44,380 nt of DNA, from NCBI RefSeq assembly GCF_003003775.1, contig NZ_PVWJ01000032.1, positions 1 to 44,380 of the forward strand. Reading direction: 5' to 3'. Under the pieces are notes generated by a model. That model was not told where the DNA came from. It was given only the letters and a program-made list of their open reading frames with translations, and ran no database searches. Made by a program: the position numbers and the translations under genes. This document shows, piece by piece, positions 35,643-42,267 of the stretch (position 1 is its first letter; every line of letters begins with the position of its first letter). This DNA comes from Merismopedia glauca CCAP 1448/3. Its GTDB lineage: Bacteria; Cyanobacteriota; Cyanobacteriia; Cyanobacteriales; CCAP-1448.

Positions 35643-36356
35643 TTACATGGCTAACTTGCTAGTTAAACTAGCGATCGCTGCTACTAATTCTCCAAATTCA
35701 ACAGGTTTGGTTAAATGAACTGAAAATCCGGCTCTTAAAGCTTGTCTGCGCTCTAAATTATCGGCTTTAGTCAGAGCTATCGCTGGAAGTTGTCGATCTG
35801 AATGGCTTTCTAAGGCTCTAATTCGTTCAATTACCCCGAAACCTTCATTATTGTCCATTGCGGTATCTATGATTAAGATATCAGGTTGCTGTTGCTGAAA
35901 CTGTACCATTGCCTCAGATACTGACGTGGCGATCGCAACTTGAGCATGGCGAATGTCTAACGGCGATCGCAAAGATTTGCCTAAATCTAGTTTACTGACG
36001 ATCAGAACCCGCAATCCGCCTAAATTCAACACGCCAGATTCAAACCCAGTCAGATGATTTTTGCCCCATTCACACATTAATTCTGTAATTGGAGTTAGGG
36101 TTTCACCATAGGGTGTCAGAGAATATTCCACCCGTCGAGGAGTCTCTGGATAAGCTTCTCGACTAACTAAGCCAACTTCTTCTAATTCCCGCAACTGTTG
36201 GGTTAGAACTTTGGGCGTAATTCCTGAGACTAACTGTTTTAACTCTCCAAAACTCTTGGCATCTCGTCTCAACCACCACAAAATAACACATTTCCATTTG
36301 CCGCCAATTAGGGCGATTGTCACTTCGATTGGACACAAATAAGTATGTTCCGGCAT
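35643..36356 (-). CDS. HxlR-type regulator fused to a degenerate receiver domain
   Basis: Residues 1-105 are an HxlR/MarR-like winged helix: CPIEVTIALIGGKWKCVILWWL, then FGELKQLVSGITPKVLTQQL and RRVEYSLTPYGETL. The Cys at position 8, before PIE-x-T-x3-IGGKWK, matches the redox- or electrophile-sensing cysteine of YodB-type regulators. Residues about 114-235 fold like a CheY receiver: VLIVSKLD, DILIIDTAMDNNEG (Asp164), IALTKA (Thr196) and HLTKPVE (Lys217). The usual acidic pair after the first strand is replaced by Ser121-Lys122, so metal-dependent phosphorylation is doubtful. The fusion of HxlR with a receiver is rare in my knowledge. It is divergent from the DJ-1/SMP-30 gene, 242 bases away, its likely target. 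Confidence 0.9.
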   Translation of the reverse strand: MPEHTYLCPIEVTIALIGGKWKCVILWWLRRDAKSFGELKQLVSGITPKVLTQQLRELEEVGLVSREAYPETPRRVEYSLTPYGETLTPITELMCEWGKNHLTGFESGVLNLGGLRVLIVSKLDLGKSLRSPLDIRHAQVAIATSVSEAMVQFQQQQPDILIIDTAMDNNEGFGVIERIRALESHSDRQLPAIALTKADNLERRQALRAGFSVHLTKPVEFGELVAAIASLTSKLAM

Positions 36357-36598
36357 ATGGCTATTTAAATCGAAGACAATAGCTATTTAAGAAGTTTCAT
36401 CTTGATATTTGATTCCTTAGTCTTGAAAAACTCCTCAATTAATACCAGAGCTATGGTTATATGACTAGAAAGCTGAACTATTAGTATCCATTTGGTAACT
36501 AATCAATATCTGTGCTAGCTTATTGACAACAAAAACCAGTTTATCGGCTCCTAATTCTAAAAAGTCGAGAATATTACCTTCTTAGTGGCTCAAAAGTT
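36357..36598. promoter_or_regulatory. Divergent promoter region of the HxlR and DJ-1 genes
   Basis: GCTATTTAA occurs twice in direct orientation at 36360-36368 and 36382-36390, a 22-base period, which is about two helix turns, near the HxlR start. ATTAGT (36480-36485) and ACTAAT (36498-36503) form an inverted pair closer to the DJ-1 gene. Either could be an operator. Core promoters were not assigned. Confidence 0.35.
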
Positions 36599-38179
36599 AT
36601 GTCAACAGAGGTGAAAAACGTGAGTAAAGTTTTGATTGTAACCACAAGCCATGACCATTTTGAGGGAGCTAATCCCCATCCTACAGGGGTATGGCTGGAA
36701 GAATTTGCCGTACCGTATATGGAACTTTTGCACAACGGGGTTGAAATAACCGTCGCTAGTCCTAAAGGGGGATCTATGCCAATCGATCCTCGCAGTCTTC
36801 CGACTCCAGAACAAGATAAAGCTTGGCAAAGGGCGATCGCAGCCTCAAAACAAACCACTCAGCTATCAAAGGTCAGCGCTACCGAATTTGATGCTATTTT
36901 TCTACCTGGTGGTCACGGTCCTATGTTTGACCTACCCGATAATTCAGATTTACAGCAATTACTCAGAGAGTTTCATGATACCGGAAAGATAATCGCGGCG
37001 GTGTGTCACGGTCCTGTAGGGTTAGTTGGTGCAACTCTATCGGATGGGACACCGTTGGTTAAAGATAAAGTCCTCACTTCCTACACTAACTCAGAGGAAA
37101 TAGCCGTCAAACTAGATAAAGAGGTTCCGTTTAGTTTAGAGGAGCGTTTGCGAGATCTGGGGGCAATTTTCATTGCTCATGAAGATAAAGCAGATCACGT
37201 TGAAAAAGATGGCAAACTGATTACAGGACAAAATCCCAATTCCAGCGCCAGTATCGCTCGTGCTTTGGTTGCGGCTTTAAATCAACAGCTTCCTGCCATT
37301 TTTGAGCGCACGCTGGAGGCGATCGCACCTGCTCAGATTGTAGCGGAATTTCCCGTTAATACCTTTCTCGAAAATCTGGCGATCGCTCCAGATGGAACTA
37401 TCTTTATTACCAGCTATGAAGATGGTAAAGTCTACCGCATGACTCAAACTGGCGAACTGACCGATTTCGCCAAGGTGGAGGGTAATATGGCGGGGATTGT
37501 TATTGAACCCACTGGAGATTTGCTGGTAGCAGCAACCCTTAAGGGTAAAGAACCGACAATCTGTCGTATTCAACCTACAGGCTCAGTGGAGCGAATTTTA
37601 ACTCTACCAGAAGCTATTTTCCTCAATGGCATGACCCATTTACAGGGGAATCTTTATCTAGTAGCGGATTCCTACAAAGGGGCGATTTGGGCTGTAGATG
37701 CGATCTCTCAAACAGCACGAATTTGGCTGGAAGATCCGCTCCTAGCTCGTTCGGACGCGAGCAATCCTTTTCCAGCCGTGAATGGGATTAAGATTTACCA
37801 AAATGCTCTTTTTGCTTCTAATACCCAGCGTCAACTCTTAATTCGCATTCCTTTAACCGATGATGGCGCACCAGGAAAACCAGAAGTATTTTTAACCAAT
37901 GTCAATCTAGATGATTTTGCCTTTGATAATCTTGGTAATTTGTATGGCACTACCCATGTTTACAATAGTGTGATTCGGATTTCACCGACAAAGGAAATTA
38001 CCACCATTGCTAAAGCTGAACAGGGGATGACTGGTAATACCGCCGTAGCCTTTGGGCGAACATCGAACGACAACACGAGTATCTATATCACCACTAATGG
38101 AGGAATGTCGTTACCCCCATCAACTGGAGTAGAACTAGCCAAAGTTGTGCGATTAGAAGTTGGTGTTCAAGGAGAATAA
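36599..38179 (+). CDS. DJ-1/PfpI protein fused to an SMP-30-like beta-propeller
   Basis: A 526-residue two-domain protein. Residues 1-228 are of the DJ-1/PfpI class, closest to Hsp31 or glyoxalase III-type members: VLIVTTSHD, GVWLEEF (conserved Glu), DAIFLPGGHGPMFDL and AAVCHGPVGL, with the nucleophile Cys136 followed by His137. Residues about 245-526 are a six-bladed propeller of the SMP-30/gluconolactonase/strictosidine-synthase-like kind, with repeated IAPDGTIFITSYEDGKVYRM, LNGMTHLQGNLYLVAD, and FDNLGNLYGTTHVYNSVIRI. There is no signal peptide, so it is cytoplasmic. The pair could remove reactive aldehydes and hydrolyse lactones. This is inference from domains. A YciI gene begins two bases after the stop. 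Confidence 0.9.
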   Translation: MSTEVKNVSKVLIVTTSHDHFEGANPHPTGVWLEEFAVPYMELLHNGVEITVASPKGGSMPIDPRSLPTPEQDKAWQRAIAASKQTTQLSKVSATEFDAIFLPGGHGPMFDLPDNSDLQQLLREFHDTGKIIAAVCHGPVGLVGATLSDGTPLVKDKVLTSYTNSEEIAVKLDKEVPFSLEERLRDLGAIFIAHEDKADHVEKDGKLITGQNPNSSASIARALVAALNQQLPAIFERTLEAIAPAQIVAEFPVNTFLENLAIAPDGTIFITSYEDGKVYRMTQTGELTDFAKVEGNMAGIVIEPTGDLLVAATLKGKEPTICRIQPTGSVERILTLPEAIFLNGMTHLQGNLYLVADSYKGAIWAVDAISQTARIWLEDPLLARSDASNPFPAVNGIKIYQNALFASNTQRQLLIRIPLTDDGAPGKPEVFLTNVNLDDFAFDNLGNLYGTTHVYNSVIRISPTKEITTIAKAEQGMTGNTAVAFGRTSNDNTSIYITTNGGMSLPPSTGVELAKVVRLEVGVQGE

Positions 38180-38181
38180 GG

Positions 38182-38499
38182 ATGCGATTTGCACTCCAAT
38201 GCCTCTTAGCAGAAAATACTGATGAGAAGCGGGTAGCTCTCAGAAGTAAACATCTGCAATATATTGAAGCTAACAAAGAGCGCATTTTCTGTGGTGGACC
38301 AACAATTAATTTAGATGGTCAACCTGAAATGATGCTGATTATTCTTGATGTAGCCAATCTCTCTGGTGCCCAAGATTTTATTGAAGCAGAGCCATACAAT
38401 CAAGCTGGAGTATTTGCACAAGTTGTCATTAGCGAATGGCGGCAAATATTACCAGAATCTGAACCAGGGGCACTATTGCGGGAGATAAATAGCAATTAA
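38182..38499 (+). CDS. YciI-family protein
   Basis: A 105-residue alpha/beta ferredoxin-like barrel protein of the YciI family, related to muconolactone isomerase-like and chlorophenol-related enzymes. The conserved part RSKHLQYIEANKERIFCGGP contains the characteristic His, then MLIILDVANLSGAQDFIEAEPYNQAGVF. Family members often act on small cyclic or chlorinated compounds or are uncharacterised. The start ATG is two bases after the preceding stop, so the two genes are translationally linked and probably serve one pathway. It is the end of the divergent module; the kinase gene converges on it. Confidence 0.9.
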   Translation: MRFALQCLLAENTDEKRVALRSKHLQYIEANKERIFCGGPTINLDGQPEMMLIILDVANLSGAQDFIEAEPYNQAGVFAQVVISEWRQILPESEPGALLREINSN

Positions 38500-38590: not shown

Positions 38591-38633
38591 CCTCTGGGGA
38601 GTTATAGCAGTACGCATCAAGTTTAGGACTTCT

Positions 38634-38662
38634 GTACAGACGTAGCACTGCTACGTCTGTAC
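38634..38662. repeat. Dispersed 29-bp palindrome, copy 3
   Basis: GTACAGACGTAGCA and TGCTACGTCTGTAC around a single C, the same as copy 2 apart from the centre base. It lies between convergent genes, where it may serve as a bidirectional 3' hairpin. Confidence 0.9.
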
Positions 38663-38694
38663 GACTGACTTTTGCTATATACTTTATTGCCAGA

Positions 38695-41600
38695 TTAGGA
38701 AGGTAATTGAACATAAAAAGTAGCACCTGCACCAGGTTTACTTTCTGCCCAAACCTTTCCACCGTGACGGTGGATAATGCGTTGAACAATGGATAAGCCG
38801 ATCCCAGTGCCTGGAAACTGTTGTTTTGAGTGCAGACGTTGGAAAGCGCCAAAGAGTTGATCGGCATATTCCATCTGGAAGCCAACGCCGTTATCCTTGA
38901 CCAAAATTATTCCCTCTGGTGTGGATTTAATTTCTATTCTGGCAGTTTCTGAACCATTGCGGCTAAACTTGATGGCATTACTAATGAGATTGACAAACAC
39001 CTGTTGCAATAAGGTAGGATCTCCGATCGCAGTCGGTAAATTGCCAATTTCAAATTCTACAGGATTGTCCGTACCTGTGTTTGGAGCGGCTAAATTGATG
39101 GCTGTTGCTACCAATTGTCGCAAGTCTACAGGTTGAAGGACTAATTCCCGCCGTCCAATCCGCGATAGGGTGAGCAACCCGTCGATCAATTCCCCCATCT
39201 TTTGGCTACTTCCCTCAATGACTTCTAAATAGTGAGCCACTTTTTGGTCATTAAGAACTTGGTTAGCATCTAGTCGTTGGCGCAGAGCATTAACAAACCC
39301 GTGCATATGCCGTAAAGGGGCGCGCAGGTCGTGGGAAACTGAGTAAGAAAATGAGTTAAGTTCTTGATTAGTCGCTTCTAATTGAGCAGTACGTGCCATG
39401 AGGTTCTGGCGGGCTTCGATTAGTTCGGTAATGTTACGGGAAGTCCCAATTAGGGCGTATACTTCTCCATTCGGACGCTTGAGGGGGATTTTGTAGGTAT
39501 CCAAATACATGGTTCCGGTGGGGAGGGCAAAAGATTCTTGGAGGTGCAAGGTTTCTCCTGACTCAAACACTTGAAGATTCTTTTCGGTAAAGTGGGCGGC
39601 ATTTTCTGGGGGAAAACATTCAAAAATCGTTTTTCCCTGGACATATTGGCGATCGCTGAAGTTGGCGGTGGCGAGACGTTCGTTGCAGAAGACAATCTTC
39701 ATTTCTTCCCGATTGACCACAAAGATGTAATCGGGCAAAGCATTGATAAAGGTGAGCAATTCAGAGGTACGTTGGTCTACCAACGCTTCTAAATTCTGAT
39801 TTTGCTTCTCTAGGGCTTGATTTAACTGCTGGATTTCTAATTCTGCTTCTTTGCGATCACTAATATCTGTATGTGTCCCCAACATCCGCAGGGGATTGCC
39901 CTCTTCATCCCAAGCGATAATCTTGCCTAGGGAAAGAATCCATTTCCAGTCACCAGTTTTTGTCTCTTGGCGGAATTCTACTCGGTATTCTGGGATTTCT
40001 TGGTTAATATAAGCTTGATAGATCGCTGCTACAGGTTTGCGATCGTCGGGGTGCAGCCTTTCAATCCATCTGCCATTGGTTTCCTGAAATTCTGCCGGAT
40101 TGTACCCTAGCATCAGAGCATATTCATCATTAACAATTGCCTCACCTGTCTGAATATTGAGGTCATAAAGTCCTTGGTTGGCAGCACTTAAGGCAAGGCG
40201 CAGGCGTTCTTCATTGTCACGTAGGGCTGCTTCGGCAACTTTGCGATCGCTGATATCGGTAATTGTGCCCACATAACCAATAATCTGTTTATTGACATCA
40301 TATTCGGCGATTGCTTGACCAAAAAACCAAGAAAAAGTTTTATCTGAACGCTGGAAGCGATATTCCTGCTGAAAGGGTCGGTTTTCTATGGCAGCACGAT
40401 CCCACTCGGCAGCGACGCGATCGCGATCTTCAGGGTGTAGTCCCTTCGTCCAGCCCATTCCAGCCGCTTCTTCGGGGCTAAGTCCCGCAATCTGACTCCA
40501 GCGATCGTTAACATACAGGCAGTTGCCAACAGCATCAGTGCGGAAAATCCCTACTGGAACAGCTTCAGCTAGGGAAGCATATCGTCGTTCGCTGGACTGT
40601 AATTCTGTCTCAGCCTGCTGGCGTTGGAGCGTATTGAGTAAAATTTCGGCAAAAATTTGCAGAAGTCGAATATTGTCATCTGTCCAATTGTGTTCTTGAT
40701 GGAAGGAAGCAAAGCCTAAAAAGCCAAACACTTTCTCCTGATTAACTAGGGGAATGATGAGAGATGATTCGATCTGAAATTGCTGTAAGCTTTGTCGATC
40801 GATAGCGGCTTCTACAGGGAGATTGGCAAGACTAGGAATATGGACAATTTCTCCTCGATGTAAGATCGCCGTTGCCCAAGGAAATACCTGATTGGGTAGG
40901 TTTTGAGTGTTTTGGCGTTGCGGAGGAAGACCATCAGCGACCCATTCGTGAGTCATGCTATGTGTGGCTTCGGTATCTGAGTATTGGAAGATGTAGCTAG
41001 TATCTACCTGAGTAAATTCCCCAATCTCTTGCAATGCTTGGTTGATGCTGTGGGTCAGGTTTTCGGAAGAGCAGGGCAAAAAACGGCTGGAAATACTAGC
41101 AATCAGGCGATCTAACTCAATTTGAAATTGCAGGGCAGCTTCTACCTGTTGTCGTTCTGCTAGTTCAATTTCTGCTTGTTGATAGGCAGCAGCTTGCTGA
41201 AGGGCGATCGCTAGCTGAGTCGCAATCTGTTGCAATAATGCCGTTTCGCCTGTTTGCCATTGCCGAGGCGCTTGACTTTCAATTGCACTCAGCATTCCCC
41301 AAACGGTTTCCCCTTGGACGATTGGGACGAGGATTTTGGCTCGGATCTGCAACTGTTCCAGGAACTCTTGATGGCAATCGCTCATCTCAGTAGTGTAGAT
41401 GTCTGGCACCACCAGAATGCGTTCGTTCCAATAGGTAAGCCGATTGGGGGTAAAACAGGTATCTTCTACCTGTCTCCCCAGGTAAGAGGGCTGGTTGCTG
41501 GCTGCCGATTCTGCCACGGCGATCGTACTCCAATCTGGTTGAAACTGCCAAATCGCCACGCGATCGCACCCTAAAAGCGAGCGTACCTCGGTCACAGTTG

Positions 41601-42267
41601 TATCCAGGATCTCCTGCCAATTCAGGGAAGATCGAATGCGATTAGCGATCGCAGCTACCAAGCGTTCTCTAGTTACCTGTGTCTCCAATTCGGCAGTCCG
41701 TGCTTGTATTTCTTGTCCCAGTTCAGCGTTACGAGTTTCCAGCCATGCCAATTTTTCTGCTTCCCAACGAGACTCTTTCTCTTGCAGTGACTCCACCAGT
41801 TTGTATGATTCTTCTAGGGGGCGCAGGAGTTGCCACAGGCTTTCGTAAGTCACAATGCCCATGATGCGATCGCTTTTACTATCATCTACAACTGGGAGGT
41901 GATGCAGGTGATGAGTTTGGAGTAGATTGAGGGCAGAGAAGACATCAGTGAATTCTGAACGGCGCAAAGTCATGACGGGCTGTGTCATCACTTGGGCGAT
42001 CGCTACTTCTGCCAATGGCAATCCTTGGGCACTCAGACGCACTACATCCCGTTCGGTGAAGATCCCTACCAGATGCTTTTCCTGTACTACTAGGACGCAA
42101 CTAGCGCCAATTTGGGCAAAATAGCGATCTGCTGATAATGAACGGGTAGCGCGGGCAGCATTCATCAGGGCGATCGCTTCTGTCACCGTGGTTTCTGGGG
42201 TAACGATGGGTGGAGTGGGGGCGATCGCGGCTTCTAGCTTAATCTCTGTTAAGGAAAAGGATGACAT
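38695..42267 (-). CDS. CBS-GAF(cyanobacteriochrome-like)-GAF-PAS3 sensor histidine kinase
   Basis: An 1190-residue soluble hybrid sensor without membrane spans. Residues about 12-150 are two CBS domains, which usually bind adenosine nucleotides. A charged coiled coil follows to about 200. GAF1 (about 203-358) has both bilin motifs of cyanobacteriochromes: DTCF at 269-272 (DXCF type) and DCHQEFLEQL with Cys298-His299. GAF2 (about 383-548) has neither. Three PAS/PAC units follow: 563-680, 690-810 and 838-950. HisKA holds the phospho-acceptor His979 in SVSHDLRAPLRH; the ATPase domain has NLISNAIKFS, VKDNGVGF and GTGIGLSI. There is no receiver domain, so a separate response regulator is expected. 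It lies 195 bases downstream of the symporter gene on the same strand. Confidence 0.92.
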   Translation of the reverse strand: MSSFSLTEIKLEAAIAPTPPIVTPETTVTEAIALMNAARATRSLSADRYFAQIGASCVLVVQEKHLVGIFTERDVVRLSAQGLPLAEVAIAQVMTQPVMTLRRSEFTDVFSALNLLQTHHLHHLPVVDDSKSDRIMGIVTYESLWQLLRPLEESYKLVESLQEKESRWEAEKLAWLETRNAELGQEIQARTAELETQVTRERLVAAIANRIRSSLNWQEILDTTVTEVRSLLGCDRVAIWQFQPDWSTIAVAESAASNQPSYLGRQVEDTCFTPNRLTYWNERILVVPDIYTTEMSDCHQEFLEQLQIRAKILVPIVQGETVWGMLSAIESQAPRQWQTGETALLQQIATQLAIALQQAAAYQQAEIELAERQQVEAALQFQIELDRLIASISSRFLPCSSENLTHSINQALQEIGEFTQVDTSYIFQYSDTEATHSMTHEWVADGLPPQRQNTQNLPNQVFPWATAILHRGEIVHIPSLANLPVEAAIDRQSLQQFQIESSLIIPLVNQEKVFGFLGFASFHQEHNWTDDNIRLLQIFAEILLNTLQRQQAETELQSSERRYASLAEAVPVGIFRTDAVGNCLYVNDRWSQIAGLSPEEAAGMGWTKGLHPEDRDRVAAEWDRAAIENRPFQQEYRFQRSDKTFSWFFGQAIAEYDVNKQIIGYVGTITDISDRKVAEAALRDNEERLRLALSAANQGLYDLNIQTGEAIVNDEYALMLGYNPAEFQETNGRWIERLHPDDRKPVAAIYQAYINQEIPEYRVEFRQETKTGDWKWILSLGKIIAWDEEGNPLRMLGTHTDISDRKEAELEIQQLNQALEKQNQNLEALVDQRTSELLTFINALPDYIFVVNREEMKIVFCNERLATANFSDRQYVQGKTIFECFPPENAAHFTEKNLQVFESGETLHLQESFALPTGTMYLDTYKIPLKRPNGEVYALIGTSRNITELIEARQNLMARTAQLEATNQELNSFSYSVSHDLRAPLRHMHGFVNALRQRLDANQVLNDQKVAHYLEVIEGSSQKMGELIDGLLTLSRIGRRELVLQPVDLRQLVATAINLAAPNTGTDNPVEFEIGNLPTAIGDPTLLQQVFVNLISNAIKFSRNGSETARIEIKSTPEGIILVKDNGVGFQMEYADQLFGAFQRLHSKQQFPGTGIGLSIVQRIIHRHGGKVWAESKPGAGATFYVQLPS

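Follow-up and report, generated by a model that had tools for sequence, protein, structure and literature searches.

The stretch of DNA analysed here (the window; 44,380 nucleotides of Merismopedia glauca CCAP 1448/3, contig NZ_PVWJ01000032.1) carries a forward-strand gene at 36599–38179 for a 526-amino acid protein in which a DJ-1/Hsp31-type domain is fused to a beta-propeller. The reading frame has an ATG start and is uninterrupted throughout. The DJ-1_PfpI profile (PF01965) matches residues 1–229 (1.2e-17; about 36599–37285), and the SGL/SMP-30 profile (PF08450) matches the C-terminal half (residues 230–526; about 37286–38176) with a score of 31.6 bits, the cut-off being 26.3. Among solved structures, the closest in sequence are 1u9c (residues 10–229; 4.9e-67) and 2p4o (residues 231–525; 2.1e-99). 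On the same strand, a YciI-family gene (38182–38499, 105 amino acids; PF03795, 2.2e-12) begins two bases after the fusion stop codon, as the earlier note had reported. Divergent from both, across a 242-bp gap, lies a reverse-strand gene for a 237-amino acid HxlR regulator with a C-terminal degenerate receiver domain (35643–36356; HxlR 3.4e-30, Response_reg 3.1e-14), and the intergenic region holds an operator-like imperfect palindrome, TTAGTATCCATTTGGTAACTAA, at 36481–36502 (no strand assigned). The combination of fusion, YciI, and divergent HxlR is not a chance arrangement.

The window's genome (5.2 Mb in 254 contigs) has a single full-length copy of the fusion. Homology scans of the order, the class, and a named-genome collection, the last of which detects close relatives only, found the fusion in 11 cyanobacterial genomes including this one, and its cyanobacterial range is to be read within that limit. 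The other carriers are Phormidium LEGE 05292, Acaryochloridaceae RU_4_10 (where a frameshift splits the gene within the DJ-1 part), Lyngbya HA4199-MV5, Nodosilinea nodulosa PCC 7104, Stenomitos rutilans, and five further genomes. A frameshift or assembly artefact as the source of the fusion is ruled out by the identical junction in the 10 other genomes. No full-length fusion was present in the plasmid or phage collections, so it does not appear to be plasmid or phage cargo. Conservation of the gene set elsewhere was the check that the earlier note had set beforehand, and the genes are indeed kept together in other genomes: YciI lies directly downstream of the fusion in nine of the 11, and an HxlR-receiver gene accompanies it in three.

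The ten aligned fusions are 57–73% identical to the window's protein, and E35, C136, H137, E166, E258, N343, N395, and D438 are invariant among them. At the junction, the native N terminus of the propeller (LPPIF) directly adjoins the DJ-1 C terminus, as would be expected if the stop codon between two neighbouring genes had been lost. Most propellers of this family stand alone without a DJ-1 domain. In a tree of 42 propellers the fusions form a group within which three propeller-only members are nested, a pattern compatible with the DJ-1 part having been gained once and lost at least twice; the DJ-1 part is absent in L036/L037. The DJ-1 tree agrees with a single origin at weak support (64/56), and overall the sequences are consistent with derivation of the conserved fusion from a single event. 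One of the three propeller-only members, L005:1343-2406, is a visibly decaying copy: the DJ-1 part is cut to 36 codons and is in a different frame from the propeller, which is intact. Beside it lie a transposase-like gene and a hydrolase gene that is itself truncated.

The DJ-1 domain has the features expected of a glyoxalase III/Hsp31-like protein, which is how the earlier note had classified it: in addition to the family match, there is a Cys-His pair at the nucleophile elbow, C136-H137 (codons at 37004–37009, forward strand), with E35 and E166 as acidic partners. C136, H137, and E166 are invariant across 25 aligned DJ-1 proteins, and E35 is invariant or nearly so. Aligned against Candida glyoxalase III (4lru), C136, H137, and E166 fall on Cys, His, and Glu, the last of which we take to be the Glu of the triad. 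The Cys-His-Glu site and the overall alignment are shared with Candida Glx3, yeast Hsp31, and bacterial DJ-1 proteins of the 1u9c type; the window's domain differs in its fusion to a propeller, and its activity is putative. The closest stand-alone relative found in the homology scans is a Hymenobacter protein with 62% identity.

The propeller is six-bladed, and its own model has a pLDDT of 95.3. The full-length model, built with ten sequences, has a mean pLDDT of 76.9 and a pTM of 0.59, and its DJ-1 half is weak, so no arrangement of the two domains is claimed. The propeller model superimposes on 2p4o with Z 51.0 and 0.8 A over 297 residues at 52% identity. This structure is that of NPUN_F0524 from Nostoc punctiforme, which its depositors labelled a putative lactonase of the SMP-30/gluconolactonase family; it is like the window's propeller in fold and sequence, whereas it stands alone. 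No publication naming NPUN_F0524 was found in the open-licence literature. The next best structural matches are the fungal proteins EupfF (Z 35.9; 283 aligned residues, rmsd 2.6) and PycR1 (Z 35.3), ahead of the lactonase RPA3624, Drp35, DFPase, and SMP30 (Z about 29–30). EupfF (1.1e-10) and PycR1 (3.9e-9) are also the only good phmmer matches besides 2p4o and the only characterised ones, and they have the NGI(K/R) and DDF motifs and a conserved Glu in common with the propeller. They are thus its closest characterised structures, but they differ in identity (23–24%) and in their origin from fungal meroterpenoid clusters.

All 42 aligned propellers keep four residues of metal-ligand type, E258, N343, N395, and D438, unchanged. 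In hhalign comparisons E258, N395, and D438 are matched to the invariant Glu, Asn, and Asp of canonical SGL proteins; N343, although invariant, was not placed opposite the second Asn. On these alignments an SMP-30-type metal site is likely. By profile score and by its six blades the domain falls within the SMP-30/gluconolactonase group, and by its nearest structural and sequence neighbourhood it falls beside the hetero-Diels-Alderases EupfF and PycR1. The fused propeller described in the earlier note as "lactonase-type" is therefore present and matches SGL, but lactonase is only one of several activities of this fold and the hetero-Diels-Alderases are nearer; lactonase activity is possible as one option among others. 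A related propeller in Puia dinghuensis (Bacteroidota; L068:6034-7434), which is divergent from an HxlR gene, is C-terminally fused to a bacterial-type (truncated) globin domain and is a second, independent fusion of the propeller.

Spacing between the fusion and YciI is 2 bp in the window and three other genomes; the two genes overlap in one genome, and in the remainder a few tens of bases separate them. In Phormidium and at L077 an Abhydrolase_10-type (alpha/beta-hydrolase) gene takes the place of YciI. The nine fusion-linked YciI proteins have an invariant H24, the His of the family's dyad. The dyad Asp is presumably the D of the DPY/DPF motif, which reads EPY (E70) in all nine. The YciI-family protein TftG, a 5-chlorohydroxyhydroquinone dehydrochlorinase, uses a His-Asp dyad (PMC7641849). 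PF03795 and the conserved His24 are common to the window's protein, HI0828, and TftG, whereas EPY in the window's protein and its eight counterparts contrasts with DPY/DPF of the HI0828/TftG type; TftG-like catalysis is possible, and a chlorinated substrate is not implied.

Three HxlR genes are present in the window's genome. C8 of the divergent regulator is invariant in 14 aligned HxlR proteins, although it is a weak sign of sensing, the Cys being near-universal in the family. Formaldehyde sensing by B. subtilis HxlR depends on Cys11 and Lys13, and HxlR/DUF24 relatives sense electrophiles via the corresponding N-terminal Cys (PMC7835342). The window's protein reads C8-P9-I10 with no Lys, which rules out formaldehyde sensing by a Cys-x-Lys crosslink. 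The earlier note had a "thiol-sensing regulator" facing the enzymes; the HxlR-receiver protein is in that divergent position, but the sensing label was overstated, its basis being the conserved Cys only. The acidic pair is absent from the receiver in all ten HxlR-receiver proteins and the Lys is retained in about half; phosphorylation is therefore doubtful and phosphorelay control through this domain is unlikely.

The HxlR-receiver gene is divergent from the fusion in the window and at L077 and lies two genes off in Nodosilinea. At the other fusion loci the adjoining regulator, where seen, is AraC or LysR, and because these are found in most of them an obligatory partnership of HxlR with the fusion is ruled out. 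HxlR genes, with or without the receiver, also face propeller-only genes or their neighbours (L007, L041, L048, L057, L063, L067, L070, L102, and Puia). With only three HxlR genes in a 5.2 Mb genome this recurrent adjacency is not chance, although the loci are related by descent.

A common sequence, RGYAWCYATTWGGTAACNA, occurs in 11 of 12 HxlR-facing intergenic regions that are otherwise dissimilar. In the window it forms part of the TTAGTATCCATTTGGTAACTAA inverted repeat, in which 7 of 9 arm positions match. The only exact match to the motif in the window's genome is at 36483–36501. There is also a single site with one mismatch, upstream of a second HxlR gene (L131, contig C30); that gene faces genes which by inspection are nitroreductase-like and pirin-like. 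Across 388 genomes of the class, 21 exact sites were found, one per genome, compared with 4 for a reversed control. Sixteen lie directly beside HxlR, three beside module genes, and two in unrelated places. The motif was built from 12 loci, so that 11 of the 21 sites are independent of its derivation, and nine of these 11 adjoin HxlR or module genes. No copy is present at any AraC- or LysR-type fusion locus, and neither an HxlR gene nor the motif was found in eight of the 11 fusion loci. We infer from this distribution that the palindrome at 36481–36502 probably functions as an operator.

Genes beside motif sites elsewhere encode an aldehyde dehydrogenase, an alpha/beta hydrolase with an SDR, and SnoaL with an F420-type reductase; by inspection, further neighbours are an NmrA-like gene, an AraC gene, and a VOC gene followed by a propeller. 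In the last case (L153:1501-3017) the motif is upstream of the VOC (glyoxalase-fold) gene, a non-homologous glyoxalase-type partner replacing DJ-1. At 39 propeller loci the commonest neighbours are ABM-domain genes (26), SDR (11), LysR (11), AraC (9), and HxlR (8), and there are also F420-type NADP reductases (6) and YciI (4, every one with the fusion). An old yellow enzyme-family gene is nearby at L125.

We consider the locus most probably an inducible, HxlR-controlled operon for detoxification of reactive electrophiles, carbonyl and/or quinone-like, with a probability of roughly 0.55 on the basis of sequence. This is the best reading because the gene set is conserved, HxlR faces propeller-only relatives with a common motif, and aldehyde- and carbonyl-type enzymes lie under that motif. 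The HxlR-family regulator, with its conserved N-terminal Cys, would bind the palindrome between its own gene and the fusion, and its modification by an electrophile would change transcription of the fusion and YciI. The DJ-1 domain, with its Cys-His-Glu site, would act on a reactive carbonyl in the manner of glutathione-independent glyoxalases or deglycases, and the propeller, with its SMP-30-like metal-ligand set, would together with YciI convert later intermediates, for example a lactone, an enol, or a quinoid product. The inducer, the kind of substrate, the sequence of reactions, and any serial action of the two domains are predicted parts of this scheme. Motif-linked or neighbouring ALDH, SDR, F420-type NADP reductase, ABM, SnoaL, alpha/beta hydrolase, VOC, and old yellow enzyme-family genes count in its favour, as do the invariant site residues of both domains, YciI downstream in nine of 11 loci, trees that agree with one origin of the fusion, and electrophile sensing by HxlR/DUF24 relatives. 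Against it count the eight fusion loci without HxlR and motif, the EPY motif of YciI, and the missing formaldehyde-sensing Lys. The inducible carbonyl module of the earlier note is partly supported, by the conserved set, the common motif, and the enzymes under it, but HxlR is not an obligatory part, AraC or LysR being present in most fusion loci. Its suggestion that successive steps are held in one polypeptide was a guess that fared worse: most propellers work without DJ-1, and the domain appears to have been lost in two or more lineages.

The same neighbours are also compatible with catabolism, and the main rival, which we rate as considerably less probable, is that the module degrades one particular cyclic or aromatic compound (perhaps an aldehyde, a lactone, or a phenolic), with the propeller serving as lactonase or hydrolase and with HxlR, AraC, and LysR responding to the substrate rather than to general stress. 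The closest stand-alone DJ-1, from Hymenobacter, lies in a cluster that looks catabolic (L065:3396-11547), with genes for an alpha/beta hydrolase, SDR, metallo-hydrolase, SnoaL, UbiX, UbiD, and ALDH. That genome also has a propeller, in a different cluster that includes a near-identical SnoaL gene, and homologues of the ALDH, hydrolase, and SnoaL genes also adjoin cyanobacterial propellers and the fusion. Interchange among three regulator families points the same way. On the other hand, no ring-opening or downstream pathway genes could be recognised alongside the window's fusion, and companions that differ among genomes are a better fit to broad defence than to one fixed pathway. An unlikely alternative is that the fusion has no coupled function and that independent carbonyl-repair and lactone-hydrolysis enzymes were simply joined by loss of a stop codon. 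The abutting LPPIF N terminus, the absence or decay of the DJ-1 part in L036/L037 and L005, and the many propellers without DJ-1 would all be explained; however, both active-site sets are invariant in ten of ten aligned fusions from several families, and YciI remains attached.

It is less likely still that the propeller performs hetero-Diels-Alderase-like chemistry, with dehydration to a quinone methide followed by cycloaddition, in an operon that makes or modifies a secondary metabolite. EupfF-type enzymes form a quinone methide by dehydrating a tropolone alcohol, and cycloaddition follows (PMC9503010). Their structural lead over the lactonases, DFPase, and SMP-30 and the common motifs speak for such chemistry, but the identity is low, inspection recognised no biosynthetic scaffold genes around the fusion loci, and the regulator is of the stress type. 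A long shot of about the same standing is that the propeller belongs to a prokaryotic hetero-Diels-Alderase-like branch handling quinone methides or similar electrophiles, that its fusion to DJ-1 in this lineage would let one polypeptide generate or trap a reactive species, and that the HxlR-pseudoreceiver would control a mix-and-match cyanobacterial regulon.

For the electrophile operon there are partial precedents. In E. coli, operons of the nemRA-gloA type combine a regulator with glyoxalase-type and reductase enzymes; the window's module is alike in pairing a regulator with a glyoxalase-type enzyme, whereas the regulator and enzymes are unrelated. B. subtilis HypR, YodB, and HxlR and S. 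aureus QsrR resemble the window's regulator in the HxlR fold, the N-terminal Cys, the divergent or neighbouring enzyme operon, and a palindromic operator-like site. The window's protein differs in its degenerate C-terminal receiver and, from the formaldehyde-sensing HxlR, in having no Lys two residues after the Cys, and its locus has DJ-1, propeller, and YciI enzymes in contrast to the nitroreductase or azoreductase of those systems. All component families are known; the fusion, the operon, and the operator are without description in the open-licence literature searched, where we found neither the domain combination, nor HxlR with cyanobacteria and quinone, nor a described cyanobacterial HxlR regulon. 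The locus offers a conserved enzyme fusion that apparently arose once, with a concrete predicted operator for a cyanobacterial HxlR regulon. It also connects the 2p4o propeller family, structurally solved but functionally uncharacterised, with enzymes of electrophile type, so that the function of this family can be put directly to the test.

Convergent with the YciI operon, a reverse-strand gene at 38695–42267 encodes a large multidomain sensor histidine kinase with CBS-, GAF-, and PAS-like regions by eye; there was no sign of its conservation with the fusion. Between the operon and the kinase gene, a consensus scan alone picked out a 14-pair hairpin (TGTACAGACGTAGCA...TGCTACGTCTGTACG) followed by a short T-rich stretch (38633–38663, forward strand), which could be the operon terminator or a dispersed repeat.
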